Origin: Thioalkalivibrio halophilus
Lineage (GTDB): Bacteria; Pseudomonadota; Gammaproteobacteria; Ectothiorhodospirales; Ectothiorhodospiraceae
NCBI RefSeq assembly: GCF_001995255.1
Contig: NZ_MUZR01000013.1
Span: forward strand, 1 to 49,570
DNA: 49,570 nt
Direction of reading: 5' to 3'
Part shown: piece after piece, positions 2,601 to 21,037 of the stretch
How positions within the stretch are numbered: position 1 is the first letter of the stretch
Layout: each line of letters opens with the position of its first letter
Made by a program: the position numbers and the translations under genes
The notes under the pieces: model-generated
The model's database searches: none
What the model was told of the DNA's origin: nothing
The model's input: the letters and a program-made list of their open reading frames with translations, nothing else

Positions 2601-2655
2601 CGCGTTCGGCTCCTGATGAAGCTCTCGGTCGGGGGGAATCTTCCGCCGGCGTCGG

Positions 2656-3177: not shown

Positions 3178-3206
3178 CGGCCGACTGTCATCCCTTGTCC
3201 GTAGCG

Positions 3207-3228: not shown

Positions 3229-3298
3229 CAAAGAAAAGGGGTGAGCGGGACACCCGTATCCGGACGATCCCGCCGCACCCCGCGCTGGCCCGGTACCT

Positions 3299-3622
3299 TC
3301 AGACGTTGAAGCTTTCACCGCAGCCGCAGCGGGCCTTCTCGTTCGGGTTGTTGAAACGAAAACCCTCGTTCAGGCCTTCCTTGCCGAAGTCGAGCTCGGT
3401 GCCGTCGAGGTACACCAGGGACTTGGGACTCACCACAAGCTTCACCCCGTCGACCTCGAACACCGTGTCCGTTTCCTCGACCTCGTCGGCGAACTCCACC
3501 ACGTAGGCCATGCCGGAGCAGCCGGTGGTCCTCACCCCGAGCCGCACGCCGACACCCTTGCCCCGCTGTTCGAGGAAGTGCCGGATGCGGTCGGCCGCGC
3601 TGTCGGTCAGTGTGATTGCCAT
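3299..3622 (-). CDS. iscA: A-type Fe-S carrier IscA
   Basis: A-type carrier (107 aa, the same length as E. coli IscA) that receives clusters or iron and passes them to target proteins. The three conserved ligands are Cys35 (TTGCSGMAY), Cys99 and Cys101 in the C-terminal CGCGESF motif. The ATG at 3622 ([10 protein letters not shown]) is preferred over the longer open frame because it matches the family start. It lies 7 bp after iscU. Confidence 0.95.
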
Positions 3623-3629
3623 ATCGTCT

Positions 3630-4037
3630 TCAGGCCGTCTTCTGTTCCGGTTCCTCGGCGCCGTGCTTCTCCTGATAGTCGGAGATCGCTGCCTTGATCG
3701 CATCTTCGGCCAGCACCGAGCAGTGGATCTTCACCGGCGGCAGCGCCAGTTCTTCCGCGATCTGCGTGTTCTTGATCTGGCTCGCTTCTTCCAGGCTCTT
3801 GCCGCGCACCCATTCGGTGAGCAGCGAGCTGGACGCGATCGCCGAACCGCAGCCGTAGGTCTTGAACTTGGCGTCCTCGATCACGCCATCGTCGTTTACC
3901 TTGATCTGCAGCTTCATCACGTCACCGCAGGCCGGCGCACCGACCATGCCGGTGCCTACCGATTCATCGCCCTTCTCGAAGCTGCCGACATTGCGCGGAT
4001 TTTCATAATGATCCATCACCTTGTCACTGTAAGCCAT
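3630..4037 (-). CDS. iscU: Fe-S scaffold protein IscU
   Basis: Scaffold (135 aa) on which IscS-derived sulfur and iron are built into [2Fe-2S] clusters. Cluster ligands Cys37, Cys63, His105 and Cys106 are all present, as is the LPPVK loop (residues 99-103) recognised by HscA. The C-terminus has a short acidic extension (EEPEQKTA) beyond the E. coli protein. It lies 48 bp after iscS and 7 bp before iscA. Confidence 0.96.
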
Positions 4038-4085
4038 GATGACTCTCCTGTTCGCGTACCCGTGGGTGGATGTTCCGGAACGGCC

Positions 4086-5309
4086 TCAGTGGGCCGCCCA
4101 TTCGATGCTCTTGAGATCGATCCCGTCCTGGTACATCTCCCAGAGCGGCGACAGTTCGCGCAGCTTGCCAACTGCCTTGTGCACGATGTCGATGGTGTGG
4201 TCGATCTCTTCGACCGTGGTGTAGCGGCCAATGGAGAAGCGGATCGAGCTGTGCGCCAGCTCGTCGTCGCGACCCAGGGCGCGCAGTACGTAAGAGGGCT
4301 CCAGGCTGGCCGAGGTACAGGCCGAACCGGAGGAAACCGCGATGTCGCGCAGCGACATGATCAGGCTCTCGCCCTCCACGAAGTTGAACGACACGTTCAG
4401 GTTATGGGCCACGCGGCGTTCCTTGTCGCCGTTGAGGTAGACCTCTTCCATGTCATCCAGGCCTTCCCACAGGCGGTCGCGCAGCATGCGGATACGTTCC
4501 AGCTCGCTGCCCATCTCTTCGCCGGCGATGCGGAAGGCCTCGCCCATGCCGACGATCTGGTGCGGCGCCAGCGTGCCGGAGCGCATGCCGCGCTCGTGGC
4601 CGCCGCCATGGATCTGCGCTTCGATACGCACGCGGGGCTTGCGCCGGACATACAGAGCGCCCACGCCCTTGGGCCCGTAAGTCTTGTGCGCGGAGAAGCT
4701 CATCAGGTCCACCGGCAGCTTCGTCAGGTCGACGGCCACCTTGCCGGTCGACTGCGCCGCGTCCACGTGGAACACGATGCCGCGTTCGCGACAGAGATTG
4801 CCGATCGCCTCGATGTCCTGAATGACGCCGATCTCGTTGTTTACGTGCATGACCGACACCACGATGGTGTCGTCACGCATGGCGTCTTGCAGTTCCTGCA
4901 GGTCGACCAGACCGTTCTCGTCGACCCCCAGATAGGTCACATCGAAGCCTTCGCGCTCCAGCTGGCGCGCCGGGTCCAGCACCGCCTTGTGTTCGGTCTT
5001 GACCGTGATGACGTGCTTGCCCTTGCGCTGATAGAAGTGCGCGGCACCCTTGAGGGCCAGGTTGTCGGCCTCGGTGGCCCCGCTGGTCCAGATGATCTCC
5101 TTGGGATCCGCACCCACCAGAGCGGCGACCTGTTCCCGCGCGTTCTCGACCGCCTTCTCGGCATCCCAGCCGAAGCTGTGACTCCGGGAGGCCGGGTTAC
5201 CGAAAAAACCGTCCCGCGTCAGGAACTTCTTCATTTCTTCGGCGACGCGCTCGTCCACCGGGGTGGTCGAGGAATAGTCGAGATAGATCGGCAGTTTCAG
5301 GTCACTCAT
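4086..5309 (-). CDS. iscS: Cysteine desulfurase IscS
   Basis: PLP enzyme (407 aa) that takes sulfur from L-cysteine and gives it to IscU and to tRNA thiolation proteins. The PLP lysine is Lys209 in [12 protein letters not shown] and the persulfide cysteine is Cys331 in [10 protein letters not shown]; His107 lies in the TEHKAV motif. The ATG at 5309 overlaps the iscR stop (TGATG), indicating translational coupling. An in-frame GTG one codon upstream is a possible alternative start. It is the second gene of the isc operon. Confidence 0.96.
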
Positions 5310-5827
5310 CACGCATTGCTCCTGTCCGCGGCCGCTACCGTGGCGCCCGCATGATCGTTTTCTTTTCCGTTCGAGCCGTGCACCGTCACCGGATGCTCTC
5401 CCTGTTCGCGCGCCTGCACGCTTGCCTCGTGGCGCTCCAGCACTTCCGCCAGCGAACGATTGCTGAGGAAATCATAAAGCTGATCGCTCAGGTCCGCCCA
5501 CAGATCGTGAGTCAGGCAGCGCGATTCCTTGTTGCAGTTGGCCTTGCCGCCACAGCGGGTCACATCGACCGGTTCATCCACCGCCACGATGATCTCGGCC
5601 ACACTGATCTCGGCCGCGTCGCGACTCAGCGCGTAACCGCCGCCAGGGCCGCGGCTGGAGACCACCAGCCCCTTCTTGCGCAGCCGCGAGAACAACTGCT
5701 CCAGATAGGACAGCGAAAGCTTCTGCCGCCCCGCCACCTCGGCCAGCGAGACCGGGCCCTCGCGGGTATGAGTCGCCACGTCGAGCATGGCGGTTACGGC
5801 GTAACGTCCTTTGGTCGTCAGTTTCAT
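5309..5827 (-). CDS. iscR: Fe-S regulator IscR (Rrf2 family)
   Basis: Transcription factor (172 aa) that senses Fe-S status through a [2Fe-2S] cluster and represses the isc operon when holo. The Rrf2 winged-helix domain covers roughly residues 1-80 ([16 protein letters not shown], then [12 protein letters not shown]). Cluster ligands Cys92, Cys98, Cys104 and His107 are all present. The C-terminal tail after about residue 135 is hydrophilic and looks disordered. It is the first isc gene, with a matching candidate operator 44-68 bp upstream. Confidence 0.95.
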
Positions 5828-5870
5828 GACTCGATGCGCCTTCTTGTTCAGGTTGCTCGAGAGCTTAGCA

Positions 5871-5895
5871 ATTCCTGAGCAAAACGGTCAACTAT
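5871..5895 (-). promoter_or_regulatory. Candidate iscR promoter with type-1 IscR site
   Basis: Read on the minus strand, positions 5895-5871 give ATAGTTGACC, GTTTTG, then CTCAGGAAT, which resembles the type-1 IscR operator. The TTGACC inside it is a good -35 element, with a weak -10 (CTAAGC/TAAGCT) 17-18 bp downstream. The cysE stop codon (5890-5888) lies within TTGACC, so the upstream gene ends inside the iscR promoter. Confidence 0.65.
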
Positions 5896-6694
5896 TACCC
5901 TGCTGTTTGCGTGGCGGGATTTCACAATCGTCCGGTTCCAGCCCCTCGAGGTCACAGGGCTCCAGCGGATGGCCGGTATCCTCGCCCATCGCCTCGCCCG
6001 GGTCGATCCCCGCGCGCTTTAGCGCCTGACAGGCCTTCTCCATACGGTCATCCAGCTCGTGGACGCGATCCACGATGCGATGCAGCGCATTGGCCACCGG
6101 ATCGGGCATGTCCCGGGTGACACCGTAGGCGTCGAAACCCATGCGACTGGCGGCCTGCTGAAAGCGTGGGTCCGGCTCCGGGCGCGGCCCCAGCACCCGC
6201 GCCGGAATCCCCACCGCCGTCGCGTCCGCGGGCACATCCTTGAGCACCACGGCATTGGAGCCCACCCGCGCATGGTCCCCTATATGGATCGGCCCCAGCA
6301 GCTTGGCCCCGGCCCCGATCACGACCTCGTTCCCCAAAGTCGGATGGCGCTTGCCGCCCTCCCAGCTGGTCCCCCCGAGGGTCACCTGGTGGTAGATCGT
6401 GCAGTCATCGCCGATCTCGGCCGTCTCGCCGATCACCACGCCCATGCCGTGGTCGATGAAGAACCGGCGTCCGATGGTGGCTCCGGGATGAATCTCGATC
6501 CCCGTCAGAAGCCGCGCAATATTGCCCAGGATGCGCCCCAGCCAGCGCATGCGATGATTCCACAGCCAGTGCGACGCGCGATGAAACCACAGCGCATGCA
6601 GACCCGGATACGCCGTCAGCACCTCGAAGGCATTGCGGGCAGCGGGATCGCGCGCAAATACGCAGCGGATATCCTCGCGCAGGGTCTTGAACAT
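5888..6694 (-). CDS. cysE: Serine O-acetyltransferase CysE
   Basis: Makes O-acetylserine from serine and acetyl-CoA, the step that commits serine to cysteine, which is the sulfur source of IscS. The protein has 268 aa: a helical N-terminal region, then a left-handed beta-helix of hexapeptide repeats ([48 protein letters not shown]). The catalytic histidines fall in DHGMG and IYHQV. The C-terminal tail beyond about residue 190 is longer than in short EpsC-type enzymes. The gene sits between trmJ and iscR on the same strand, as in other isc-linked cysE loci. Confidence 0.93.
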
Positions 6695-6750
6695 GATTCC
6701 GGTCTCAATCCTGAGTTATTCGGTAGGGTATCACAGCCGGGAATCCGCGC

Positions 6751-7536
6751 TCACCGGCCCCGCAGGGTGTGCGTCAATATGCCGCGCAGCAGCCGCACCT
6801 CCGAGGCCGTCGGTTCCGCGCGCAGGTACAGATGGCGCAACCGGCGCATGGTGTGGCGCGGATTCTCCGGATCGAGCACGTCGATGGCCTCCAGGGTCTT
6901 CTCGTAATGTTCGAACAGACCTTCCAGCTCCGCGTGGGTGGCCGCAGGATCCCGCTCCGCCGCCGAGGCCTGGCGCACCACGGCACCCGACTCCCCGACA
7001 TCGGCCAGTGCCGCCCGGCGCACCGCCCAGGTCATGATCTGGACGCTGCCGGCGAGATTGAGCGAGGAAAAATCGGGGTCGGTCGGGATGCGGACGAATG
7101 CGTGGCAATGGTCGAGCTCTTCGTTGGTCAGGCCGCTGTGCTCGCGGCCGAAGACCAATGCCACCGGCCCCTCGCCCGCCCCGCCGAGCACCCGCGACGC
7201 GGCACCGTCGGGCTCCAGCACCGGCACCGAATGGGTGCGCGTGCGGGCGCTGGTCCCCACCACCTGATGACAGTCGGCGACCGCCTCGGTCAGCGTGTCG
7301 ACCACCGTGGCCCCTGCCAGCACGTCGTCGGCACCGGACGCCAGCGCGGTGGCGTCGGCATGCGGGAAGCGCTCCGGCGCCACCAGCGCCAGGTCGCGCA
7401 TGCCCATCGCCTTCATGGCGCGGGCCGCGGATCCGATATTGCCCGGGTGGGTCGTTCCCACCAGCACGACCCGGACCCGGGCGGCGGCCCCCGGGCCCGG
7501 ATCGATCGGTCGATGCTCGTCTGTCCTGGATTCCAT
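6751..7536 (-). CDS. trmJ: tRNA (Cm32/Um32) methyltransferase TrmJ
   Basis: SPOUT-class methyltransferase (261 aa) that 2'-O-methylates position 32 of tRNA using SAM. The fold signatures are an N-terminal VLVGTTHPGNIGSAARAMK motif, LVFGREHSGLTNEE in the knot, and SSLNLAGSVQIMTW near the SAM site; a helical C-terminal extension follows. The ATG at 7536 was chosen to avoid a long low-complexity upstream extension. It is divergent from suhB and 56 bp upstream of cysE. Confidence 0.92.
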   Translation of the reverse strand: MESRTDEHRPIDPGPGAAARVRVVLVGTTHPGNIGSAARAMKAMGMRDLALVAPERFPHADATALASGADDVLAGATVVDTLTEAVADCHQVVGTSARTRTHSVPVLEPDGAASRVLGGAGEGPVALVFGREHSGLTNEELDHCHAFVRIPTDPDFSSLNLAGSVQIMTWAVRRAALADVGESGAVVRQASAAERDPAATHAELEGLFEHYEKTLEAIDVLDPENPRHTMRRLRHLYLRAEPTASEVRLLRGILTHTLRGR

Positions 7537-7696
7537 GGCGCCCCTGCCCGCTCGCATGCGGGCGCGATTGTACACCGCCGCGCCGCGGGAAGCCCGACCA
7601 CTTCCAAAGCCCCGATGCGTTGTGTATTGTTCGCGACCTTCGGGGGCGTCCGTGCGCCGGCCCCGATTCCTTCCCAAGCGATGTCGGAGAACCCTC

Positions 7697-8524
7697 ATGC
7701 ACCCCATGCTGAACACGGCGGTATCGGCGGCCCGCGCGGCCGGACGCATCACCACCCGCGCCTGGGGGCGACCGGACCGGGTCAACACTCGCGAGAAGGC
7801 CCGCAACGACTGGGTCAGCGATGTCGACGTCAACGCCGAGCAGGCGATCGTCCAGACGCTGAAGAAGGCCTACCCCGACCACGCGATCCTCGCGGAGGAG
7901 GGAGGCAACCAGCCCGGGGCCACCGGCGCCGAACACGAGTGGATCATCGACCCGCTGGACGGCACCACCAACTACCTGCGCGAGATCCCTCAGTACGCGG
8001 TGTCCATCGCCCTGCGGCAGAAGGGGCGCCTGGAACACGCGGTGGTCTACGACCCGATCAAGGAAGAACTCTTCACCGCCACGCGCGGCGGCGGCGCCTT
8101 CCTCAACAACCGGCGTATCCGCGTGGGGCAGCGCAAGGATCTGACAGGTGCGCTGCTGGGCACGGGCATCCCGTTTCGCGAGGGGCAGGACCTGGAACGT
8201 TATCTGCGCACCCTGCGCCACATGATCCCGGGCACGGCCGGCATTCGGCGGCCGGGTTCCGCGGCGCTGGATCTGGCGTGGGTCGCCTGCGGCCGTTTTG
8301 ACGGCTTCTGGGAGATGGGCCTGCAGCCCTGGGACATGGCAGCGGGACTGCTGCTGGTGCAGGAAGCCGGTGGCCTGACCAGTGACTGGCAGGGTGGCAA
8401 CGAGATCTTTCGCAAGGGCGATGTCGTGGCCGGGAACCCCAAGGTCCTGAAAACGATGCTGCAGCGTCTGCACGCTGCGGAGGTGGAGGGACGCAAGACC
8501 GGAAGCCCGCACGGCGAAGGCTGA
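7697..8524 (+). CDS. suhB: Inositol-1-monophosphatase SuhB
   Basis: Mg-dependent inositol monophosphatase family enzyme (275 aa). In E. coli the same protein also joins rRNA antitermination complexes. Metal-site motifs are present: AEEGG (about residue 73), DPLDGTTNYL (about 90) and QPWDMAAG (about 210). The ATG at 7697 begins MHPMLNTAVSAARAAG; the second Met three codons later is also possible. It is divergent from trmJ, with a 160-bp shared upstream region, and convergent with secF. Confidence 0.93.
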   Translation: MHPMLNTAVSAARAAGRITTRAWGRPDRVNTREKARNDWVSDVDVNAEQAIVQTLKKAYPDHAILAEEGGNQPGATGAEHEWIIDPLDGTTNYLREIPQYAVSIALRQKGRLEHAVVYDPIKEELFTATRGGGAFLNNRRIRVGQRKDLTGALLGTGIPFREGQDLERYLRTLRHMIPGTAGIRRPGSAALDLAWVACGRFDGFWEMGLQPWDMAAGLLLVQEAGGLTSDWQGGNEIFRKGDVVAGNPKVLKTMLQRLHAAEVEGRKTGSPHGEG

Positions 8525-8530
8525 ATCGCC

Positions 8531-8550
8531 CGGGGCGGTCATCGGCCCCG
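8531..8550 (+). terminator. Weak hairpin after suhB
   Basis: CGGGGC (8531-8536) pairs with GCCCCG (8545-8550), seven bases after the suhB stop, in the convergent gap before secF. No T-run follows, so it is only a possible 3'-end structure. Confidence 0.3.
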
Positions 8551-8634
8551 CTCTGCTCCCGCAGCCACGCCCTCATATCCCTGTGGGGGCGGGCTTCCTT
8601 GTCCGTCCCTGCCCTCCCCCGAATCAGGGCGTTC

Positions 8635-9585
8635 TCAGGGCGTCGCATCCTCCTCGTCCGCCCCTTCCTTCTTCACCGGCAGCAGCACCTGGCGGTCGAC
8701 CCCCAGCATCAGCGCCGCCGTGGCCGCGATGAAGATCGAGGAGTACGTCCCGACGATGACACCGATGATCAGCGCCACCGAGAAGTTCTGCAGAGCCGCC
8801 CCGCCGAGGAAGAACAGCGCGAACAGCACCAGCAGGGTCGTCATACTGGTCACGATGGTTCGTGCGAGGGTCTTGTTGACCGCATTGTTCATCACGAACT
8901 CGGTGCCCTGCTTGCGCAGGACCCGGAAGTTCTCGCGTATGCGGTCGTACACCACGATGGTGTCGTTGAGCGAGTAACCGATCACCGCCAGGACCGCCGC
9001 CAGCACCCCGAGGTCGAACTCGAGCTGCAGTGCCGAGAAGATCCCCAGCGTGATCACCACGTCATGTACCAGCGCCAGCACGGACCCCGCGGCGAAGCGC
9101 CACTCGAACCGCACGGCGACGTAGATCAGGATCCCTGCCAGGGCGTAGATCATCGCCAGACCGCCCTGCTCGCGCAGCTCCTCGCCCACCGACGGTCCGA
9201 CGAACTCCACCCGCCGCAGTTCGGCACCTTCCGGGCCACCGGCCTCCAGCAGCTGCATGACCTGATTGGACAGCGCCGCCTCGTCCGGCTCGTCCTCGCG
9301 CGGAGGCAGGCGGATCAGCACATCCCGCGCGGTACCGAAGGTCTGGACCTGCGCTCCCTGGAATCCGCCCTCGTTGATGGTTTCCCGGATCGGATCGAGC
9401 TCCACCGCTTCCGGGTAACCGACCTCCACAAGGGTTCCGCCCGTGAAGTCGATGCCGAAATTGATCCCGCGGGTGGCGAGCATCAGCACCGACAGCAGGA
9501 TCAGCACCACCGAGATCACCAGGGTGACCCGGCGCTTGCCCAGGAAGTCGAAGTTGGACTCGGCGAAGTTGAGATGCGGCAGCAT
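8635..9585 (-). CDS. secF: Protein translocase subunit SecF
   Basis: Inner-membrane RND-like subunit (316 aa) that with SecD uses the proton gradient to complete export through SecYEG. It has one N-terminal membrane helix (about 18-38), the GIDFTGGTLVEV motif, a periplasmic domain (about 45-140) and five more membrane helices, with GYSLNDTIVVYDRIREN in the conserved membrane block. The C-terminus is acidic (EGADEEDATP). It lies 16 bp after secD in the usual order. Confidence 0.95.
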   Translation of the reverse strand: MLPHLNFAESNFDFLGKRRVTLVISVVLILLSVLMLATRGINFGIDFTGGTLVEVGYPEAVELDPIRETINEGGFQGAQVQTFGTARDVLIRLPPREDEPDEAALSNQVMQLLEAGGPEGAELRRVEFVGPSVGEELREQGGLAMIYALAGILIYVAVRFEWRFAAGSVLALVHDVVITLGIFSALQLEFDLGVLAAVLAVIGYSLNDTIVVYDRIRENFRVLRKQGTEFVMNNAVNKTLARTIVTSMTTLLVLFALFFLGGAALQNFSVALIIGVIVGTYSSIFIAATAALMLGVDRQVLLPVKKEGADEEDATP

Positions 9586-11858: not shown

Positions 11859-14049
<2,191 letters not shown>

Positions 14050-14098
14050 GGCGCGCGATCCTACCATGCCCCGGCTCGCGGGATACCGCTCGGCCGTA

Positions 14099-14126
14099 TT
14101 GCCACACCCCCTGCGTGCGCTACACT
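14099..14126 (+). promoter_or_regulatory. Promoter of the tRNA-Leu/tRNA-Thr pair
   Basis: TTGCCA at 14099-14104 and TACACT at 14121-14126 are separated by 16 bp, a plausible sigma-70 -35/-10 pair. The expected start point is about 7 nt before the first base of tRNA-Leu. No other promoter-like sequence is visible between the two tRNAs, so they are probably co-transcribed. Confidence 0.6.
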
Positions 14127-14139
14127 ACGGACGCTGCAC

Positions 14140-14224
14140 GCCGGGATGGTGGAATTGGTATACACGGCGCACTCAAAATGCGCTGGCTTCGGCCTTGTGG
14201 GTTCGAGTCCCACTCCCGGCACCA
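14140..14224 (+). tRNA. tRNA-Leu (CAA)
   Basis: An 85-nt cloverleaf with an encoded CCA. The acceptor stem is GCCGGGA/TCCCGGC, the anticodon loop is CTCAAAA (anticodon CAA) on a GCGCA/TGCGC stem, a long class-II variable arm follows, and the T-arm is GTGGG TTCGAGT CCCAC. It is separated from tRNA-Thr by a single base. Confidence 0.96.
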
Positions 14225-14225
14225 G

Positions 14226-14301
14226 GCCGGTGTAGCTCAGCTGGTAGAGCGTCTGATTTGTAATCAGAGGGTCGCAGGTTCGACTCCTGTCACCGGCTCC
14301 A
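14226..14301 (+). tRNA. tRNA-Thr (TGT), integration target
   Basis: A 76-nt cloverleaf with encoded CCA: acceptor GCCGGTG/CACCGGC, anticodon loop TTTGTAA on a TCTGA/TCAGA stem, so anticodon TGT. Its last 25 bases, from the T-arm through CCA, are the left half of a 27-bp repeat that recurs at 19921-19947. The gene therefore stays intact while serving as attachment site for the element to its right. Confidence 0.96.
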
Positions 14302-14303
14302 TA
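14277..14303 (+). repeat. attL, 27-bp direct repeat
   Basis: The sequence from GGTTCGACTC to CCGGCTCCATA, covering the tRNA-Thr 3' end plus two bases, is identical to 19921-19947. It marks the left boundary of the integrated element. Confidence 0.92.
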
Positions 14304-14388
14304 TGACCCTCCAGGGGCATCCCGCCCCGTCCCTCAGTACCCGGAAAATCAGCGAGTTAGAGCCTTTCATGGTCCTAGCTTGTCCGGT

Positions 14389-14404
14389 GCTGTCTATGGA
14401 CAGC
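14389..14404. repeat. GCTGTC/GACAGC palindrome near attL
   Basis: A perfect 6-bp-arm inverted repeat with a 4-base centre (TATG), inside a longer imperfect one (CTAGCTTGTCC with GGACAGCCTAGC). It lies 86 bp inside attL and upstream of int. It is a candidate recombinase or excisionase site; no function is proven. Confidence 0.4.
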
Positions 14405-14415
14405 CTAGCATCGAC

Positions 14416-14434
14416 GGGGGTACTTTTGGGGGTA
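14416..14434 (+). repeat. Left GGGGGTA repeat (19 bp, shared with right end)
   Basis: GGGGGTACTTTTGGGGGTA here is identical to 19849-19867 near the other end. Three inverted TACCCC-type motifs follow at about 14437, 14453 and 14469, just before the int start. Repeats of this kind near both ends suit arm-type integrase binding sites and possible autoregulation of int. Confidence 0.6.
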
Positions 14435-14475
14435 GATACCCCGATTTGCCCTGTACCCCCTGCCGAGATACCCCC

Positions 14476-15690
14476 ATGCCCAAGCCAACGAACAAGCTGA
14501 CCGCCGCCGCACTGCGGGCCGCCAAGTACGAAGGCCGGCCCCACAAGATCGCAGACGGTGGCGGCCTCTACCTCCACGTCACGGCATCCGGGAAATACTG
14601 GCGGATGAAGTACCGGGCCGATGGCCGCGAAAAGCTGCTGTCGTTTGGCGTGTACCCCCGGGTGTCCCTTGCCGAGGCCCGCCAGGCCCGTGACGAAGCG
14701 AAAGCCCGGCTTGCCCGTGGCGAGGACCCGCAGGAGGCGAAGCGCGCCAGCCGGGAGACCCGGGCCGACACCTTCCGGGTGCTGGCGGAAGATTGGATGG
14801 AGCGGAAGCGCAGCGAGCTTGCCGAAGACACCCTGCGCCTGACCCGCAGCCGGCTAGAGACGTGGGTATTCCCGGAGATCGGGCAACGCCCTGTGCGGGA
14901 GATTGAGCCGCCGGACGTGTTGCGGTTGCTGCGGGTGCCGGAGTCCCGGGGCAAGCATGAGACGGCGCGCCGCCTGCGGCAGCGGATCGGGCAGATCTTC
15001 CGGTATGCCATCGCGACCGGGCGCGCGGACCGGGATCCGACCACAGACCTGAAGGGCGCACTCGCGAGTACCCCCACGAAGCACCGCGCGGCAATAACCA
15101 CCCCCAACGAAGTGGCGGACCTCCCGCGCGCAATCGACCACTACGATGGGCAACCCTCCACCTGGGCGGCCCTGCGAATGCTGGCGTTGACCTTTGTCCG
15201 GAGCGGAGAACTGCGGGGCGCCACCTGGGACGAAATCGACCTTGATGAAGGCACGTGGCGGATACCCGACGCCCGAATGAAGATGCGGCAACCGCATATC
15301 GTCCCGCTGAGCGAACAAGCCTGCGAATGCCTGCGGTGGCTTCACGCCCTGACCGGCCCCGACGGCCTGGTGTTCAAGGGACTGCGGCCGGGCAAGCCGA
15401 TCTCCGAAAACACCCTGCTGGCGTCGCTGCGGAATCTGGGGTATGCCTCCAGCGAGATGACGCCGCACGGCTTCCGGGCAACGGCTTCAACGCTGCTACA
15501 CGAACTGGGATGGCCGCCGGAGGTGATCGAACTCCAGCTTGCGCACGCGCAGCGGAGTCAGGTGGCCGCCGCGTACAACCGGAGTGCGCGCCTGCTGGAA
15601 CGCCGGGAGATGATGCAAGCATGGGCCGACCACCTGGACACCCTGCGCGAAGGCGACCAGGACAACGTGGTCCCGATCCGGAGCGCGTGA
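14476..15690 (+). CDS. int: P4-type tyrosine integrase
   Basis: Site-specific recombinase (404 aa) expected to integrate and excise the element at tRNA-Thr. An N-terminal DUF4102-type arm-binding domain (about 1-90: KIADGGGLYLHV, SFGVYPRVSLAEAR) is followed by a core-binding domain (about 95-190) and a catalytic domain. The catalytic residues are Arg242 (VRSGEL), His331/Arg334 (HGFRATAS), His357 (LAHAQ) and Tyr367 (AAYNRS), so it looks active. The ATG at 14476 (MPKPTNKLTA) matches family starts; upstream in-frame codons run through the repeat-rich left end. It is the first gene inside attL and reads inward. Confidence 0.95.
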   Translation: MPKPTNKLTAAALRAAKYEGRPHKIADGGGLYLHVTASGKYWRMKYRADGREKLLSFGVYPRVSLAEARQARDEAKARLARGEDPQEAKRASRETRADTFRVLAEDWMERKRSELAEDTLRLTRSRLETWVFPEIGQRPVREIEPPDVLRLLRVPESRGKHETARRLRQRIGQIFRYAIATGRADRDPTTDLKGALASTPTKHRAAITTPNEVADLPRAIDHYDGQPSTWAALRMLALTFVRSGELRGATWDEIDLDEGTWRIPDARMKMRQPHIVPLSEQACECLRWLHALTGPDGLVFKGLRPGKPISENTLLASLRNLGYASSEMTPHGFRATASTLLHELGWPPEVIELQLAHAQRSQVAAAYNRSARLLERREMMQAWADHLDTLREGDQDNVVPIRSA

Positions 15691-15705
15691 TGCCAATGTC
15701 AGAAA

Positions 15706-15721
15706 TGTGACCCAGATCACA
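15706..15721. promoter_or_regulatory. Consensus-like CRP/Vfr binding site
   Basis: TGTGACCCAGATCACA has perfect TGTGA-N6-TCACA half sites, and the preceding AAA extends the match to the CRP consensus. It lies 15 bp after the int stop. No clear -10 is visible at standard class I or II spacing, so which gene it would control is open. Confidence 0.55.
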
Positions 15722-15926
15722 CCCGCTTGATACCGGCCACAAGGCCGCTAACCACAAGGCGCCGAACGCTAAGCGTCAGAAATAACACGTCGGGGGTATG
15801 GATTTGCACATTTTTGGCCTCTTCCCGTAGTGGGAAAGCTCCGCGAGCCCCAACATGTTGGGTCTTCGCATGACGCGGGCGGACTATGTACGATGGCGGC
15901 GTGTCTGTAGGGACAGGCACAGAAAA

Positions 15927-15953
15927 GGGAGACCCCCGGCCGGGGGGGCTCCC
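15927..15953 (+). terminator. Strong GC hairpin upstream of alpA
   Basis: GGGAG, a one-base bulge and CCCCCGG pair with CCGGGGG and CTCCC. The stem is very stable but is followed by TTCAAG rather than a T-run. It could end transcripts from int or be a leader structure before alpA. A smaller hairpin (15901-15920) precedes it. Confidence 0.45.
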
Positions 15954-15992
15954 TTCAAGCAAACTGACCGATGCCAGCCGCCTTTTGTCAGT

Positions 15993-16026
15993 GTTTACAA
16001 TAGAGCTCAATGAGCACCATGTAAAC
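15993..16026. promoter_or_regulatory. GTTTACA/TGTAAAC operator overlapping a -10
   Basis: Perfect 7-bp inverted half sites at 15993-15999 and 16020-16026. The left half overlaps TACAAT (15996-16001), a 5/6 match to a -10 element, about 65 bp before the alpA start; an ATGCCA 19 bp upstream is a weak -35. The layout suits repression by a dimer, possibly AlpA itself. Confidence 0.4.
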
Positions 16027-16065
16027 CCCCGGCTGCCATCGGTCCTCAAGTCCGAGGAGGACGCG

Positions 16066-16266
16066 ATGTATAACGACACCGATACAGCAACACCCGAACG
16101 CCTGCTGCGCCTTCGCGACGTGCTGGACCGCACCAGCATGTCCCGCAGCGCATGGTATGCCCTGATCCAGCGAGGCGAGGCCCCCGCACCGGTCAAGGTG
16201 GGCGCGGCTGCCCGCTGGCCGGAGTCCGCCGTGGATGCCTGGATTCGCCGCCAGGTCGAAAGCTGA
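16066..16266 (+). CDS. alpA: AlpA-family regulator/excisionase
   Basis: A 66-aa helix-turn-helix protein of the AlpA/MerR-like excisionase type. The pattern RLRDVLDRTSMSRSAWYALI, then RGEAPAPVKVG and RWPESAVDAWIRR matches the family closely. In P4-like elements AlpA-type proteins activate integrase or act as excision factors. The ATG at 16066 has GAGGAGG six bases upstream, which favours it over the longer open frame. It begins the rightward cluster of the element. Confidence 0.88.
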   Translation: MYNDTDTATPERLLRLRDVLDRTSMSRSAWYALIQRGEAPAPVKVGAAARWPESAVDAWIRRQVES

Positions 16267-16277
16267 GGGGGTGAACC

Positions 16278-16685
16278 ATGCAGACGCAGAACACCCCGCG
16301 CCGGGGGAAGACCGGCAACGGGGCGGGGCTCGGTGCGCCCGTCTATCGTAACACCGGGCGGCGCTGGCCGCCCTACGCCCGCCAGCACGCGGACGCCCTG
16401 CGGAGGCCCGTCTGTACCGTCTGGGTAGCCGTCGGGGCGGATGCCTGGCGGTGGGCGCGCAGCCGTCCAAACCACCATGTTCTGGTCGCGCCGGAGGATA
16501 CCGACCCGGCTTCGCTCGACTGGCGCTGCTGCCGGGGGCATGACCCCGTGCTTTTGCAGCGTGTCGGTCACGTCGACGGCGAGCGCGTGGAGCGCCTGGT
16601 GCGTGCGCTGCTGCGGGACGGGGTGCAACGGGTCCTGACAGACACCGGGGACCGTTATCTAGCGGAGGGGGTGGACCATGGCTGA
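16278..16685 (+). CDS. Element protein of unknown function (135 aa)
   Basis: I do not recognise a family. The protein is basic at the N-terminus, rich in Arg, Trp and His, with a middle VWVAVGADAWRWARSRPNHH segment, a CC pair in DWRCCRGHD and a C-terminal helix VERLVRALLRDGVQRVL. No membrane segment or signal peptide is seen. GGGGGTG precedes its ATG, it starts 11 bp after alpA, and it overlaps the next gene by 8 bp, so it is part of the same operon. The context suggests a replication accessory or regulatory role; this is inference. Confidence 0.75.
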   Translation: MQTQNTPRRGKTGNGAGLGAPVYRNTGRRWPPYARQHADALRRPVCTVWVAVGADAWRWARSRPNHHVLVAPEDTDPASLDWRCCRGHDPVLLQRVGHVDGERVERLVRALLRDGVQRVLTDTGDRYLAEGVDHG

Positions 16686-18186
16686 CGTAGTGGTCGCACC
16701 CTTGCAGGACCCGGTTCCGGAGTGGCCGCCGGTCACGCCCCTGGACGCGCCGGAGCTGCCGCGCCTGAATGCCGACCTGCTGCCCCGGTTCGCCGGCGAT
16801 TTCGTGCGAGCGCTGTCCGCCAGCACGGAGACGCCCCCGGAGTTGCCGGCGGCTCTGGTGCTGGCGGTCTGTTCTGCTGCCGCTGCGCGCCGTCTGCGGG
16901 TACGGGTCGGGCCGGACTATTTCGAGCCCACGAACCTCTGGTTTGTCGCTGCCCTGAACCCCGGCAATCGCAAGTCTGCAGTACAGTCCGCCGCTACCGC
17001 CCCACTGATCGCCTGGGAACGCGACCAGGCCGCAGAGATCGAGCCGGAGATCGAACGGGCGCAGTCGTTGCGGAAGACGCTGGAGACCCGGGCCGCTGAG
17101 CTGCGCAAGAAAGCGGCGAAGCTGGATGACCCCAACGCCCGGGAGGATCTGACGCAGCAAGTCGCGCAGATTGAGGCGGACATGCCGGAGGTCCCCGTGG
17201 TCCCGCAGCTATGGACCAGCGACGCGACGCCGGAGCGCCTGGGCTCGATCCTGGCGGACCACGGCGAGCGGATGGCCTGGATGTCCAGCGAGGGCGGCGT
17301 GTTCGATCTGCTGGCGGGCCGGTACTCCGGTGGGGTGCCGAACCTGGATCTTGTCCTGAAGGCGCACTCCGGCGATTCCGAGCGGGTGGATCGGGGCAAC
17401 CGCCCGCCGGTGTATCTGCATCATCCGCTGCTGACGGTCGGGCTGAGCCCGCAGCCGTCGGTTCTGCGCGGGCTGGCGACAAAGCCCGGGTTCCGGGGGC
17501 GCGGGCTGCTGGGGCGATTCCTTTATCTGCTGCCGCCGGATCCGCTGGGGTTCCGCCAGTTGGAGGATGTAGCGATGCCGGAGGGCACCCGCACCGCCTA
17601 CGATGCTGGCATCCGCGCGATGCTGGACTGGCCGCCAGCCGAGGGTGAGCGCCCGCACGTGGTGCGCATGACCCCGGAGGCCACGACGGCATGGAAGGAA
17701 TACCAGCGGGCCATGGAGGCGATGATGCGCCCCGGTGGCGATGCGGAGCACGCGACCGACTGGGCTGCAAAGGCCCCTGGGGCAGCCGCCCGACTGGCCG
17801 CTGTACTGCATGCTGTCCAGCACGCACACAGCCGCCCGTGGGAGTCGGCTATCAGCGGCGAGACGATGGAGGCCGCCCTGGAGTTGATGGGCACCCTGAC
17901 CCAGCACAGTCTCGCCGCGATGGACCTGGTGGGCGCGGATCCGACGATAGACGGAGCCCGCAGGGTCTGGCGCTGGATCGAAGCGGGCCGGCATGAGCGG
18001 TTCAAGCTGCGCGATGCGCATTCTGCCCTGAGGGGGCGATTTGACCGGGTGAAGGATCTGCGCGAAGCCGTCGAGGTGCTGGAGGAAAGGGGGTACATCC
18101 GGGAGCTGGAGAACGAGCCCGACGGACCCGGCAGGCCGTCGACGTGGCTGGAGGTGAACCCCGCTGTCACGGGTGCGTGGTCATGA
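16678..18186 (+). CDS. DUF3987 replication-type ATPase
   Basis: A 502-aa protein of the DUF3987 family, common in prophage- and satellite-type elements and thought to act as a helicase or primase-associated ATPase. A Walker-A-like NPGNRKSA is at residues 94-101, a coiled-coil stretch at about 112-168, a Walker-B-like MAWMSSEGGVFD at about 199-210 and the conserved GRGLLGRFLYLLP at 274-286. A C-terminal winged-helix-like region spans about 430-490. The P-loop is degenerate (GNRKS), as in other family members. It overlaps the next gene by ATGA. It is probably the replication protein of the element; no zinc-binding primase domain is visible. Confidence 0.85.
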   Translation: MADVVVAPLQDPVPEWPPVTPLDAPELPRLNADLLPRFAGDFVRALSASTETPPELPAALVLAVCSAAAARRLRVRVGPDYFEPTNLWFVAALNPGNRKSAVQSAATAPLIAWERDQAAEIEPEIERAQSLRKTLETRAAELRKKAAKLDDPNAREDLTQQVAQIEADMPEVPVVPQLWTSDATPERLGSILADHGERMAWMSSEGGVFDLLAGRYSGGVPNLDLVLKAHSGDSERVDRGNRPPVYLHHPLLTVGLSPQPSVLRGLATKPGFRGRGLLGRFLYLLPPDPLGFRQLEDVAMPEGTRTAYDAGIRAMLDWPPAEGERPHVVRMTPEATTAWKEYQRAMEAMMRPGGDAEHATDWAAKAPGAAARLAAVLHAVQHAHSRPWESAISGETMEAALELMGTLTQHSLAAMDLVGADPTIDGARRVWRWIEAGRHERFKLRDAHSALRGRFDRVKDLREAVEVLEERGYIRELENEPDGPGRPSTWLEVNPAVTGAWS

Positions 18187-18776
18187 GCTGGCGGGAGGTG
18201 CTGGGGGTGGCTGAGGCCGCCCCTTCCAAACCGGAGCCCCCTGAACAAAATTCACAGTATCCACAAAAAGGGGGGTCGACCGGGGGTTTTGTGGATTTTG
18301 TGGATATTGTTCAGGGAGGTTCGGATTCAATTCCGCCGCCCGTCGACGCCGCCAGCATCATTACCGAGGCCGCCCGGTCGGCTGGCCTGCTGCCGGAGAC
18401 CCTGCACCAGACCCTGAGCACGGAGGACCTGGCGGACCTTGCCGACGGCACCCTTCCCCCGGAGGCTGTCACGGCTCACGCGCGCAGCGTGGCCGCCCGC
18501 TGGGGGGAGGACCGGGTGCTGGACGATGAAACGGAGCTGGCGGCTGCTGAGCGGGTGCGTCACGACCCACTGGTGGATCTGCCCCTGCTGCGCGAAGACC
18601 GGATGTTTATCGAGCGCTGCGTGGTCGGGCGTTCGGATCGGCATGACCTGCTGACCGAGTATCGGCGGCAGTGGCTGGCGGCAGCGGATGCCGAGGGGTC
18701 AGAGATCCGGCGGGACAACGCGGCGCGACGGGCGGCGAATGCGTGGCTGCGGTCCGCCGCTGCCTGTAGTGGATAG
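18183..18776 (+). CDS. 197-aa element protein containing an iteron-like DNA repeat
   Basis: No confident family. The start at 18183 gives an ATGA overlap with the DUF3987 gene. Residues about 12-48 form a Pro/Gln/Gly-rich linker with a FVDFVDIV motif; the DNA coding for it is a large inverted repeat (18239-18316). The rest is soluble and mainly helical (TLSTEDLADLADG, then a C-terminal Arg/Ala-rich helix). The position directly after the ATPase suggests a replication partner, for example an initiator or loader whose target lies inside its own gene. This is speculative. Confidence 0.75.
   Translation: MSWREVLGVAEAAPSKPEPPEQNSQYPQKGGSTGGFVDFVDIVQGGSDSIPPPVDAASIITEAARSAGLLPETLHQTLSTEDLADLADGTLPPEAVTAHARSVAARWGEDRVLDDETELAAAERVRHDPLVDLPLLREDRMFIERCVVGRSDRHDLLTEYRRQWLAAADAEGSEIRRDNAARRAANAWLRSAAACSG
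18239..18316. repeat. 78-bp inverted repeat of iteron-like 9-mers
   Basis: Arms 18239-18268 and 18287-18316 are 30 bp each and match at 26 of 30 positions; the 18-bp centre contains the palindrome GGTCGACC. The right arm reads TTTTGTGGA, TTTTGTGGA, TATTGTTCA; the left arm on the other strand reads TTTTGTGGA, TACTGTGAA, TTTTGTTCA, and each is followed by GGG. The repeated 9-base period and AT-richness inside a GC-rich gene resemble initiator-binding iterons. Confidence 0.7.
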
Positions 18777-18806
18777 AAGCCCCCTGATATGCTAGATGTA
18801 GTGGAT
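18765..18806 (+). repeat. TGTAGTGGAT direct repeat at terS start
   Basis: TGTAGTGGAT at 18765-18774 and again at 18797-18806, 32 bp apart. The first copy ends the 197-aa gene and the second runs into the ATG of the terminase-like gene. It may be an operator or a trace of a small duplication. Confidence 0.4.
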
Positions 18807-19233
18807 GGCTGGACGACCGACCAAGTACACCGAGGACATGCAAGCCCGCGCGGACGCCTATGTAGATGGCGGCTTCGGGGACTGCGGTGATGTAGTGCCG
18901 AGCCGGGCCGGCCTGGCGCTGGAACTCGGGGTGAGCCGGTCTACCTTGGCGCAATGGGAAAAGGCATACCCCGAATTTTCGGCCACGTTGGACCGGCTGA
19001 AGGCGGCGCAAGAGCGGCTGAGCCTGAACGGGGGCCTGCGGGGTGAACTCAATGCCCCTATCGTCAAGCTGCTGCTGGCCAACCACGGCTATGGGGACAA
19101 GGTGACCCAGGCCCACGTGAGCCCCGACGGCTCTATGCCCCCGCCGCCCCGCATTGACGCCAGCAAGCTGACGGATGAACAGCTTGAAGCCTTGACGGAG
19201 GCGCTGGAGATCCCCGGGGAGGAAATGCCCTGA
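18805..19233 (+). CDS. Probable phage terminase small subunit (TerS-like)
   Basis: A 142-aa protein resembling gp3-type small terminases. It begins MAGRPTKYTEDMQARADAYV and has a helix-turn-helix (LALELGVSRSTLAQWEKAYPEF, about 38-59), a helical oligomerisation region and the typical ending NAPIVKLLLANHGYGDKVTQ, DGSMPPPP and LTDEQLEALTEALE. Small terminases choose the DNA to be packaged and work with a large subunit. No large subunit is present, so the protein would have to work with a helper phage's TerL, as in PICI satellites. It is the last rightward gene of the element. Confidence 0.78.
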   Translation: MAGRPTKYTEDMQARADAYVDGGFGDCGDVVPSRAGLALELGVSRSTLAQWEKAYPEFSATLDRLKAAQERLSLNGGLRGELNAPIVKLLLANHGYGDKVTQAHVSPDGSMPPPPRIDASKLTDEQLEALTEALEIPGEEMP

Positions 19234-19365
19234 CCCGGGATTTTCCCGACTAGGCCGCCGCCGGAGTCCGCCGCACGACCGCCCGACCGGCATGCGCTGA
19301 CGCACCGCATAGGCCGGGAGCCGGTCCACCAGACAGGCCCCATGCCGAGTAGTGGACGCGGGCCG
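19234..19365. other. Convergent gap between terS and the orphan gene
   Basis: A 132-bp GC-rich gap with no gene and no clear T-tailed hairpin. TAGTGGA occurs once more here (about 19348), echoing the repeat at the terS start. Confidence 0.4.
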
Positions 19366-19803
19366 TCATGCCTGACCCGCCCGCTGGAAGGCTTGCCACG
19401 CATCCGCAGGCCGGGCGCTGGCGGCGCGGTCGAGCCAATACCGACGCTGCTGGCGGTCGAGACGGTTCCACCAGGCCACGCCCGCCGCGTCATCCTCGCC
19501 GCCGTGCCGGCCCGCCAGCGAGTCCGGGATCTGCCGGTTCTGGCGGTACTGCCCGAAGTCTGACCACGCTGCGGGATCGTCGGGGCTGTACCCGTAGTGG
19601 CCGCACCAGCGGATGAACTCGCCGCTCCACGTCGGGTGTCCGTGGTGGAGGCCGTGCGAGACCTGGCAATACTCGCCGCTGCGGTTGCGGGGCCAGACGC
19701 CCGCCGCGCGCAGGGTGTCCGCCTGCTGGGGTGTCAGGTTGATCGTGCTGCCGTTGGGCGCTTGCCAGGTGATGACCTGGCGGGGTTCGGTGATGGTTTG
19801 CAT
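19366..19803 (-). CDS. Orphan element gene, possible cargo (145 aa)
   Basis: I do not recognise it. It is the only leftward gene of the element, lying between terS and attR, the place where satellites often carry accessory or defence cargo. The 145-aa protein (from MQTITEPRQVITW) is soluble and rich in Trp, Gln, His and Arg: INLTPQQADTLRAAGVWPR, CQVSHGLHHGHPTW, FIRWCGHYGYSPDD, WWNRLDRQQRRYWLDRA. There are no transmembrane segments and no catalytic signature I can name. The Met at 19803 was chosen; one 12 codons upstream is also possible. It could be a regulator, an anti-phage factor or a modifier of the helper. Confidence 0.65.
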   Translation of the reverse strand: MQTITEPRQVITWQAPNGSTINLTPQQADTLRAAGVWPRNRSGEYCQVSHGLHHGHPTWSGEFIRWCGHYGYSPDDPAAWSDFGQYRQNRQIPDSLAGRHGGEDDAAGVAWWNRLDRQQRRYWLDRAASARPADAWQAFQRAGQA

Positions 19804-19848
19804 GGCTGCTGTCTCCGGTTGAAGTGACGAAGGCAGCACCGGGGTTGT

Positions 19849-19867
19849 GGGGGTACTTTTGGGGGTA
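19849..19867 (+). repeat. Right GGGGGTA repeat
   Basis: GGGGGTACTTTTGGGGGTA, identical to 14416-14434 at the left end and in the same orientation, 54 bp inside attR. Candidate arm-type integrase site. Confidence 0.6.
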
Positions 19868-19920
19868 CATTCATCGGAAGGGCGACCCTGAACCCCATCG
19901 AATCAACGCCTTGCGATCGG

Positions 19921-19947
19921 GGTTCGACTCCTGTCACCGGCTCCATA
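19921..19947 (+). repeat. attR, 27-bp direct repeat
   Basis: Identical to 14277-14303: the 3' part of tRNA-Thr through CCA and two more bases, without the rest of a tRNA. Just inside it, AACCCCATCG (19891-19900) pairs with CGATCGGGGTT (19914-19924), an inverted repeat touching the site. Confidence 0.92.
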
Positions 19948-19958
19948 AAATCAAGGGT

Positions 19959-19981
19959 TTGCGGCACATCACCCGCCGCAA
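19959..19981 (+). terminator. Hairpin after attR, possible original tRNA terminator
   Basis: TTGCGGC (19959-19965) pairs with GCCGCAA (19975-19981). Before insertion of the element this would have stood about 12 bases after tRNA-Thr. No T-run is present, so the assignment is weak. From here to 20141 I see no gene. Confidence 0.3.
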
Positions 19982-20141
19982 CACTCCCCGCCTTCCCCTC
20001 CGTGGTGCACATCGTGGCGCACAGAAACGGTAGCCAGTTTTTTTCGCCCTGCCTTTGGCGCTACGCTCCCAGCATCATCTTCCCCCAGATCCTGAATTCA
20101 ACCAATAAGTGCAACGCTACGTCATGCGGCGCGTGCCGATG

Positions 20142-20513
20142 TCAATCTTCCGCATCCTCCAGGCGGGCCTGTTCGATCAGGACCGGGTAGACGTAGCCGG
20201 CACCGAAATCCCTTTCGAGCACGTAGACCCCTTCCACCCGCACACGGTCACCCGGATCGGCGGTCTGCTGGCTGGTGAGGGTAATGAAGTCGCCGGGCTC
20301 GCCCGTGCCGTCCACCAGCCGCAGGAAATTGCGGCCCATGATGTCCTCGTTGACCTGCGCGATGATGCCTTCCAGGCGCACCGTCTCGCCCTCAAGCTCT
20401 TCCGGTGCCTGATTCAGGGCTTCCACGCTGTGTATCTCGTTCGCGGCAACGGCCGTGACCAGCAGGCCCGCAGCCAGCGGCAGGGCCAGCAGCATGTGGC
20501 GGATTCGGATCAT
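20142..20513 (-). CDS. Periplasmic OB-fold-like protein
   Basis: A 123-aa protein with an N-terminal signal peptide (MIRIRHMLLALPLAAGLLVTAVAA, cleaved near residue 24) and one small beta domain: GETVRLEGIIAQV, GRNFLRLVDGTG, DFITLTSQQ, GDRVRVEGVYVLERDFGAGY. This pattern is that of small exported OB-fold proteins. I cannot name a substrate. Its ATG overlaps the tadA stop by 4 bp, so it is the last gene of the mla-gpx-tadA operon. Confidence 0.7.
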   Translation of the reverse strand: MIRIRHMLLALPLAAGLLVTAVAANEIHSVEALNQAPEELEGETVRLEGIIAQVNEDIMGRNFLRLVDGTGEPGDFITLTSQQTADPGDRVRVEGVYVLERDFGAGYVYPVLIEQARLEDAED

Positions 20514-21037
20514 GAAGTTCTCCTTTGCGGATCGGGTTCGGGCGGCGCGCCATCTTCGTCCCCGGCGGCGGGCGTGTTGCGCCGACGGGCGCGGAAGAAG
20601 TCGCGCAGCTGGGTCGCGGCACGTTCGGCCAGCACCCCGCCGGTGACCGCCACGCGGTGGTTGTGGGCCGGATGATGGATCAGGTCGATGGCACTGCCGG
20701 TGGCCCCGGTGCGTGGATCGGCCGCGGCATACACCAGCCGTGCCACGCGGGCGTGGATGATGGCGCCGGCGCACATGGAACAGGGCTCCAGGGTCACGTA
20801 TAGCGTGGTGCCGGGGAGGCGGTAGTTGCCAACACGCTCCCCGGCCGCGCGCAGGGCGCGGATCTCGGCGTGCGCGGTGGCGTCACGGCTGGCGATGGGT
20901 GCGTTGTGGGTCGCCGCGAGGGCGTTGCCTTCGGCGTCCACCAGCACCGCGCCTACGGGCACCTCACCGGCTACGGCTGCGGCCTCGGCCTGTGCGAGCG
21001 CCTGTTCCATCCAGCGCACGTCATCCTGCTCGCTCAT
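20510..21037 (-). CDS. tadA: tRNA-specific adenosine deaminase TadA
   Basis: Converts A34 to inosine in tRNA-Arg(ACG). The 175-aa protein has the zinc deaminase motifs AHAEIRAL (catalytic Glu) and PCSMCAGAI, and the VPVGAVLV and NYRLPGTTLYVTLEP segments of the family. The C-terminal tail after about residue 150 (RARRRNTPAAGDED) is polar. The ATG at 21037 gives the normal start; it overlaps the gpx stop by 4 bp. Confidence 0.93.
   Translation of the reverse strand: MSEQDDVRWMEQALAQAEAAAVAGEVPVGAVLVDAEGNALAATHNAPIASRDATAHAEIRALRAAGERVGNYRLPGTTLYVTLEPCSMCAGAIIHARVARLVYAAADPRTGATGSAIDLIHHPAHNHRVAVTGGVLAERAATQLRDFFRARRRNTPAAGDEDGAPPEPDPQRRTS

Follow-up and report, generated by a model that had tools for sequence, protein, structure and literature searches.

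What kind of mobile element is a 5.6-kb island that sits at a tRNA-Thr gene and carries an integrase, a replication protein and a phage-type small terminase subunit (TerS)? The island lies in a stretch of 49,570 nucleotides (contig NZ_MUZR01000013.1; the window, meaning the whole stretch of DNA analysed) from a host that we infer to be Thioalkalivibrio-like; the genus Thioalkalivibrio oxidises sulfur. We favour, with moderate confidence, the reading that it is a minimal phage satellite built on the functional plan of the phage-inducible chromosomal islands (PICIs), with a DUF3987 replication protein of the type found in the phage-inducible chromosomal minimalist islands (PICMIs). It is probably a real, compact and functional satellite, an unusual, stripped-down combination of known parts. 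More general than the island itself is a finding at its centre: a recurrent inverted repeat of 9-bp iterons behind the DUF3987 gene, a probable replication origin that many related islands have in common.

Limits of the island and its attachment site

The features that define the island ends are as follows.

14140-14224: tRNA-Leu(CAA) (ARAGORN)
14226-14301, + strand: tRNA-Thr(TGT), the attachment gene, left intact (ARAGORN; Rfam tRNA, 3e-15)
14277-14303, + strand: attL, 27-bp exact direct repeat (repeat search)
14416-14437, + strand: left candidate integrase arm sites, a GGGGGTA pair 12 bp apart (14416, 14428)
19849-19870, + strand: right candidate integrase arm sites, a GGGGGTA pair (19849, 19861)
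19921-19947, + strand: attR, 27-bp exact direct repeat (repeat search)

The best direct repeat among those listed for positions 13500-21000 is an exact 27-mer whose copies lie 5,644 bp apart and in which bases 1-25 form the 3' end of tRNA-Thr(TGT). The original prediction, that 27-bp direct repeats bound seven genes inserted precisely at tRNA-Thr, thus holds at base resolution, and all seven genes are open: int, alpA, orf3, the DUF3987 gene, orf5 and terS on the + strand and orf7 on the - strand. Outside the repeats the genes are chromosomal, with the housekeeping genes for YajC, Tgt and QueA on the left and, on the right, a cytidine-deaminase-family gene, a glutathione peroxidase gene (GSHPx), ABC_trans_aux and MlaD-type transport genes. 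A further repeat of 22 nucleotides near both island ends (14416-14437 and 19849-19870, 21 of 22 positions identical) had escaped the original prediction. It contains the paired GGGGGTA motifs, which may be the arm sites of the integrase; GGGGGTA or TACCCCC occurs 12 times in the 49.6-kb window, and 10 of these sites are inside the island.

The right flank is matched in all 30 genomes of the genus, and 3 of the 29 relatives' loci scanned (G002, G008 and G024) have an uninterrupted site, in which tRNA-Leu and tRNA-Thr are present and the island is not; there the tRNA pair precedes the conserved block of the flank by about 0.7-0.9 kb, too short a distance to hold an island. The sequence directly behind tRNA-Thr in G010 aligns with that directly behind attR of the window, the match being confined to the first ~123 bases. 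This G010 flank looks empty despite a second, 37-bp copy of tRNA-Thr some 9 kb off, beside another int-DUF3987-orf5 element (L036; 6437-6473 and 15515-15590).

Could the seven genes instead be what is left of a larger phage or phage-like element? TerS is phage-derived, and an element in genome G009, which could resemble such an ancestor, shares the order int-alpA-orf3-DUF3987-orf5 and also has tail-lysin-like genes. The seven genes are, however, directly bounded by exact att repeats with chromosomal genes outside, none of their frames is broken, and the replicon is seen again in other small elements, of 6.6 kb (L047) and 8.2 kb (L060). Because no convincing head family (other than TerS), tail family or large terminase subunit (TerL) family was found in the seven proteins, no obvious stump of a larger prophage is visible, and we regard descent by decay as very improbable. 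The specific concern that terS belongs to a degraded larger prophage at this site, voiced when the island was first proposed, was rejected in view of the att repeats and the housekeeping flanks. The predicted lack of structural phage genes also stands, with no convincing match to capsid, portal, tail or TerL families in Pfam or PHROGs, and no head family other than that of terS in PHROGs. A sub-threshold resemblance of the DUF3987 protein to the scaffolding family DUF4355 (E 0.2) was taken as chance.

A candidate replication origin behind DUF3987

The replicon of the island comprises the following features.

16678-18186, + strand: DUF3987 replication protein, 502 amino acids (PF13148, 1.9e-99; phrog_2373 'DNA helicase', 6e-59)
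18183-18776, + strand: orf5, 197 amino acids, begins MSWREVLG (no Pfam family; weak match to phrog_31018, 1.6e-6)
18228-18268, + strand: candidate origin, left arm (9-bp iterons, inverted)
18287-18327, + strand: candidate origin, right arm (TTTTGTGGA TTTTGTGGA TATTGTTCA)

The DUF3987 protein is read here as a candidate self-loading initiator helicase. Its structure model (mean confidence score, pLDDT, 87.9) gave PDB matches that were mostly weak ones to MCM helicases, with one at E<=0.001 among those listed (6.6e-4, TMq 0.37), and in the model a C-terminal helix-strand domain looks like a winged helix. Phages and plasmids rarely carry such a protein: it matched 3 phage records out of 50,697, at 32% identity or less, and 2 plasmid records out of 72,556. 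It also matched 14 of 144 genomes, own genome included; in separate searches it matched 25 distinct loci in the genome_contigs set and 2 in viral_contigs.

Just after the DUF3987 stop codon, within the first third of orf5, lies an inverted repeat with 41-nucleotide arms, a feature absent from the original prediction. It is the strongest in the window, its score being reached by none of 294 other stretches of 330 nucleotides. The same region was surveyed behind other DUF3987 genes, in a set made up of close relatives and a class sample rather than a random draw; 58 loci entered, two were skipped (open reading frame below 300 codons) and one duplicate was dropped. At 33 of the 55 distinct loci that remained, the best inverted repeat in the 330 nucleotides behind the gene beats all 100 dinucleotide shuffles, and 29 of these 33 repeats start within 120 nucleotides of the DUF3987 stop. 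These counts take the near-copies L052/L053 and L045/L046 apart, include L046 although it was probably read in the wrong open reading frame (727 amino acids), and score L065, L069 and L104 as near although they lack clear 9-bp units.

The 19 near repeats with arms of at least 24 nucleotides have an internal period: identity within an arm is 0.61 at a lag of 9 and 0.46 at a lag of 18, against 0.16-0.33 at the other lags tested (3-19). Pairing between the arms is 0.83 in register, a value inflated because the repeats were chosen for pairing; a slide of 9 lowers it to 0.57-0.61, and the remaining shifts gave 0.16-0.35. The 9-bp period was no criterion in selecting the repeats. From the signals within and between arms it follows that each arm consists of roughly three iterons of 9 bp, whose orientation flips from one arm to the other. 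The iteron sequence itself differs by element, being TTTTGTGGA here, TTGTCG-type in L064 and L067, and TGCGGATAT-type in L049 and L052.

An inverted repeat of this form might also be a hairpin acting in RNA or transcription control, or the trace of a repeated tripeptide in orf5, and no origin at all. The repeat does lie inside the orf5 reading frame, 9 bp are three codons, and pairing in register exceeds pairing slid by 9, even if the former value is inflated by selection. Yet the 9-bp period within the arms, with a unit that changes from element to element, suggests repeated protein-binding sites, and Rfam has no family at 18228-18327; we therefore think a hairpin or tripeptide rather unlikely.

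The reading of the repeat as the origin of DUF3987 draws on its position, since the corresponding sites of PICIs, of the Staphylococcus aureus pathogenicity islands (SaPIs) and of the Cch2 protein of the staphylococcal cassette chromosome mec (SCCmec) likewise sit behind the replication gene, and on the DUF3987 model. The PICI layout has a rep gene, then an origin with two iteron sets, and sometimes terS (PMC6092414); by layout, DUF3987 followed by two inverted iteron sets may be comparable to the pri-rep and origin of EcCI, although the island has a GC-rich stretch separating its iteron sets and PICIs an AT-rich one (PMC6092414). In SaPIs the origin follows closely behind the helicase gene, and the C-terminal domain of SaPI Rep is described as binding there; the same is described for SCCmec Cch2, whose binding needs direct repeats and not inverted ones (PMC7581432). 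The likeness thus lies in an iteron origin set immediately behind the gene for an initiator helicase, a candidate origin in the island, where the helicase family is DUF3987 and DNA binding is putative. The iteron stretch of the window has no exact match in viral_contigs, and we recognised no description of an iteron repeat behind DUF3987 in those parts of the open-licence literature that were searched; the words 'iteron', 'inverted repeat' and 'palindrome' are absent from the main text of PMC10803314, the published description by which PICMIs were compared.

Two surveyed loci, L061 and L063, have a different and nearly perfect palindrome of 28-29 nucleotides, 204-223 nucleotides behind the DUF3987 stop, which is common to one Myxococcales and one gammaproteobacterial record.

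The small terminase and its relatives

One further gene bears on how the island might be packaged.

18805-19233, + strand: terS, P22 gp3-type small terminase, 142 amino acids (PF16677, GP3_package, 2.3e-24; phrog_309, 9e-14)

By profile match and alignment this is an intact and genuine TerS, so that what was at first described only as TerS-like can be named as such. A tblastn search matched 37 phage records, the best being Pseudomonas phage KLEP17-4 (64% over 82% of the query; 60% identical in the protein alignment), and 28 residues are invariant among six aligned TerS proteins. All five phages inspected have an annotated TerL gene following terS at a distance of no more than one gene: the two overlap in KLEP17-4 and in Providencia phage PSTNGR2lys, are 16 bp apart in APSE-2 and 82 bp apart in Vibrio phage V039C, and have one gene between them in Acinetobacter phage P115. 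The protein is rare among bacteria related to the host, matching 2 of 144 related genomes (own genome and one weak match), while GP3_package exceeds its cut-off in 2 genomes out of 369 from the class, one of them the own genome. In the genomes and loci searched, no second element was found that joins a gp3-type TerS to a DUF3987 replicon. Another genome of the class has a TerS-like open reading frame ~35 bp behind a tRNA-Thr(TGT) gene (L005, G139:C255, 1375-1797; E 8e-4, profile 8e-8); it was considered as a second such island, and no island was recognised when the contig was read.

TerS of other kinds does recur beside the same replicon. A parallel in gene order within the genus is the element of G009, which keeps int-alpA-orf3-DUF3987(64%)-orf5, extends ~17 kb from a tRNA-Ser to a far pair of arm sites, and has a different arm motif in the same layout, paired at each end with a spacing of 12 bp; a TerS of phrog_1206 (5e-11) is encoded near its far end. 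The relatives and empty sites that the original prediction pointed to were thus found in part, as a syntenic element in G009 and three uninterrupted loci, with the qualification that the G009 element starts at tRNA-Ser. The G009 loci (L026, 1-12592; L042, 15190-19501) also encode a single-stranded DNA-binding protein and a PDDEXK-like nuclease, and the other open reading frames scanned, part of the total, include no head gene. With its tail-lysin-like genes it could be the remnant of a phage or another kind of element as well as a satellite of larger size.

Two further elements combine TerS with capsid genes. L070, an IMG/VR contig of 10,617 bases with a 127-bp terminal repeat, encodes int, alpA, an orf3 homolog (32%), DUF3987 (60%) and an orf5-like reading frame of MSWR type, together with a protease/capsid gene (phrog_133, 7e-169) and a phrog_57 TerS (3.5e-18); the reading frames scanned matched neither portal nor TerL nor tail families. 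L071 has DUF3987 (39%), a phrog_57 TerS (2.2e-20), a protease gene and a capsid gene. With L060, L064 and L067, capsid genes stand beside the DUF3987 replicon in five elements, and TerS does so in four (the window, G009, L070 and L071), from three TerS families. Among 79 new loci found through the L070 capsid gene, none encodes a DUF3987 that fits this profile (E<=1e-5), so the gene has no fixed link to the replicon. Two small IMG/VR contigs have a related capsid gene without a DUF3987 of this profile: L149, which also has int and an orf3-like reading frame, and L151, which has a TerS like that of L071. Repeats taken from a tRNA also recur: of the 13 loci where a tRNA lies close to the replicon, seven (window included) have an exact tRNA repeat of 27-52 bases 5.6-12.4 kb away, two have a repeat of 13-17 bases only, and four have none.

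These recurrences bear on whether terS matters to the island at all. The island could be an integrative element that replicates itself but moves by transformation, generalised transduction or a host plasmid, with terS a captured bystander. Such a reading fits the single TerS match among the best 25 of 42 families for 48 reading frames behind DUF3987 in 17 relatives (48 of 81 listed), and also the relative of orf7 that lies, by eye, beside a TrfA-like plasmid gene on the small contig C97. Weighing on the other side, no relaxase family was found among the seven genes in general Pfam and PHROGs scans, terS is intact with a coding-like third-position GC content, and TerS recurs in G009, L070 and L071. 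We hold the bystander explanation to be quite unlikely.

Under the satellite reading, by analogy with work on PICMIs and PICIs and from the protein families concerned, Int, aided by AlpA, would excise the island from tRNA-Thr upon helper infection or induction. The C-terminal domain of DUF3987 would bind the 9-bp iterons behind its own gene, perhaps with orf3 as a replication partner, and the excised circle would replicate to concatemers driven by DUF3987. The island TerS would then replace or compete with the helper TerS on the helper TerL and start headful packaging on the concatemers, so that the head of a phage of 43-45 kb would take ~7-8 units; for one of 43.6 kb, such as KLEP17-4, the figure is ~7.7 units of 5,644 bp. 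Within terS there may also lie a recognition site for the protein, just as gene 3 of P22 carries pac.

TerS might also be imagined as a blocker that titrates phage TerL, the island being packaged by helper machinery as PICMIs are. PICMI115, in which no packaging gene (terS, sid, ppi) was identified, is packaged nonetheless (PMC10803314), PICMIs being packaged as concatemers by a virulent helper, and the tail of the window TerS is unlike those of phages. Packaging nevertheless fits better with the occurrence of different TerS families on the same replicon and with the two relatives that pair TerS with capsid genes, and we consider a blocking role unlikely.

Several observations weigh against the satellite reading as a whole. 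The window TerS has its own, longer C-terminal tail relative to the phage proteins, and a profile of gp3-type TerS run over 9,002 reading frames of the loci found this island and phages, with weak matches in L005 and L006. No helper is apparent either: the KLEP17-4 TerL was unmatched in 58 genomes, own included, in a search run without a positive control, and scanning the own genome for a phrog_2 TerL brought up that of another small island (G000:C3) and no other. The tRNA pair is lacking in the flank covered (up to 1.5 kb) at 26 of the 29 relatives' loci, among them G012, which has the most similar flank (88% identical). The G009 element encodes a 709-amino-acid protein weakly like tail lysins or tape measures (phrog_1047, 1e-5) and a lysin-like reading frame (phrog_669, 4e-14), and a search for an att copy of its tRNA found no stretch above 12 bases. 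Finally, the iteron repeat is non-significant in 22 of the 55 loci, including G005, a genome of the genus, and CP4-57 of Escherichia coli, where the repeat behind yfjI scores 8.0, matched or beaten by 42 of 100 shuffles.

Remaining genes, named families and significance

The other genes of the island are listed here.

14476-15690, + strand: int, tyrosine integrase, 404 amino acids (PF00589, Phage_integrase, 4e-23; PF13356; PF22022)
16066-16266, + strand: alpA, excisionase/regulator-like, 66 amino acids (PF05930, Phage_AlpA, 8e-10; PF12728, 1e-6; phrog_66)
16278-16685, + strand: orf3, 135 amino acids, no family; overlaps the DUF3987 start
19366-19803, - strand: orf7, 145 amino acids, no convincing family

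Third-position GC is 0.74-0.87 in all seven genes and 0.82 in queA. Homologs of orf3 stand in front of DUF3987 in L026, L038 and L070, and its structure model (pLDDT 67.4) has no PDB match at E<=0.001. Orf5, whose 5' part holds the candidate origin, has homologs behind DUF3987 in several relatives and no match in phage records at E<=0.01. A homolog of the C-terminal part of orf7 is found on another contig of the same genome (G000:C97, 3.3 kb; L033, 1156-1677), beside the reading frame that resembles a TrfA-type plasmid replication gene. PADLOC gave no defence match at E<=0.1 for orf3, DUF3987, orf5 or orf7.

The same genome also has a second small island, on G000:C3 (L076, ~865-9000), which ends at a transfer-messenger RNA gene (end repeat by eye) and encodes int, a 160-amino-acid gene overlapping int, an AlpA-like gene, a RepB-primase/AAA_25 protein and a TerL (phrog_2, 8e-22), with no capsid match in the reading frames scanned; TerS and TerL thus occur on separate islands of this host. 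On contig C29 (L032, 1-2252), near tRNA-Arg(CCT), is a CRISPR (clustered regularly interspaced short palindromic repeats) array of 12 repeats and 11 spacers, close to an integrase fragment 79% identical to the start of the island int. None of the 11 spacers has a match of at least 75% (15-base exact seed) in the sequences compared.

How, then, does the island relate to named families? The original prediction could match its layout to none, and on this point it has to be revised, as int-alpA-[unknown]-DUF3987 is the family-defining PICMI core (PMC10803314) and also the layout of CP4-57. PICMIs resemble the island in size class, int, alpA, often one unknown gene before a DUF3987/DUF5906 'primase', and the lack of capsid genes. 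Of the features in the published PICMI model, in which integration at fis is mandatory, AlpA is PF05930 or PF12728, and the primase is DUF3987 or DUF5906 (PMC10803314), the island has the integrase, AlpA and DUF3987. It differs in its tRNA-Thr site and Thioalkalivibrio-like host, as opposed to fis and Vibrionaceae, and in having terS, described as lacking in PICMI115. Fis is absent among the flanking genes identified, and no Fis-family gene near DUF3987 was among the matches listed in 21 genomes. We do not file the island as a PICMI, because it neither sits at fis nor lacks terS; on sequence grounds, TerS and the tRNA-Thr site set it apart. At 5.6 kb it is smaller than PICMI115 (6,110 bp), called the smallest satellite with characterised activity (PMC10803314), though any activity of the island is putative.

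With Gram-negative PICIs such as EcCICFT073 the island shares int, alpA and a specific att site and, if its inverted repeat is an origin, the functional order int, alpA, replication gene, iteron origin and packaging genes including an optional terS; it differs in that its replication protein is DUF3987 and its length only 5.6 kb. PICIs are further marked by induction, interference and transfer that depend on a phage; in the island, induction and transfer are putative. CP4-57 of E. coli K-12 has intA-yfjH-alpA-yfjI(DUF3987), the same int-X-alpA-DUF3987 order, but is 22 kb long and lies near smpB, at ssrA. Capsid-forming PICIs (cf-PICIs) carry their own capsid genes, as do the relatives L070 and L071 with TerS beside the same replicon, whereas the window island has none. 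P4-like satellites have Psu, Sid or Delta-like genes, and none of these families is among the Pfam and PHROGs matches of the seven proteins.

We suggest tentatively, at somewhat less than even confidence, that these elements form an unnamed and widespread superfamily of tRNA-integrated satellites, which join a self-loading DUF3987 helicase to an element-specific palindromic origin of 9-bp iterons in the 5' end of the next gene and swap packaging modules (none; at least three TerS families; TerS plus capsid). If so, the window island would be smaller than every other member encountered in this analysis that has a TerS of its own. If the satellite reading is true, 5.6 kb hold the functions of integration, excision, replication and packaging choice, which would make the island a good minimal model. 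The recurrent iteron repeat supplies DUF3987 replication proteins with a candidate origin and could serve as a sequence mark by which to find related satellites, and the different TerS families on one replicon suggest that satellites could change helper by swapping one small gene.

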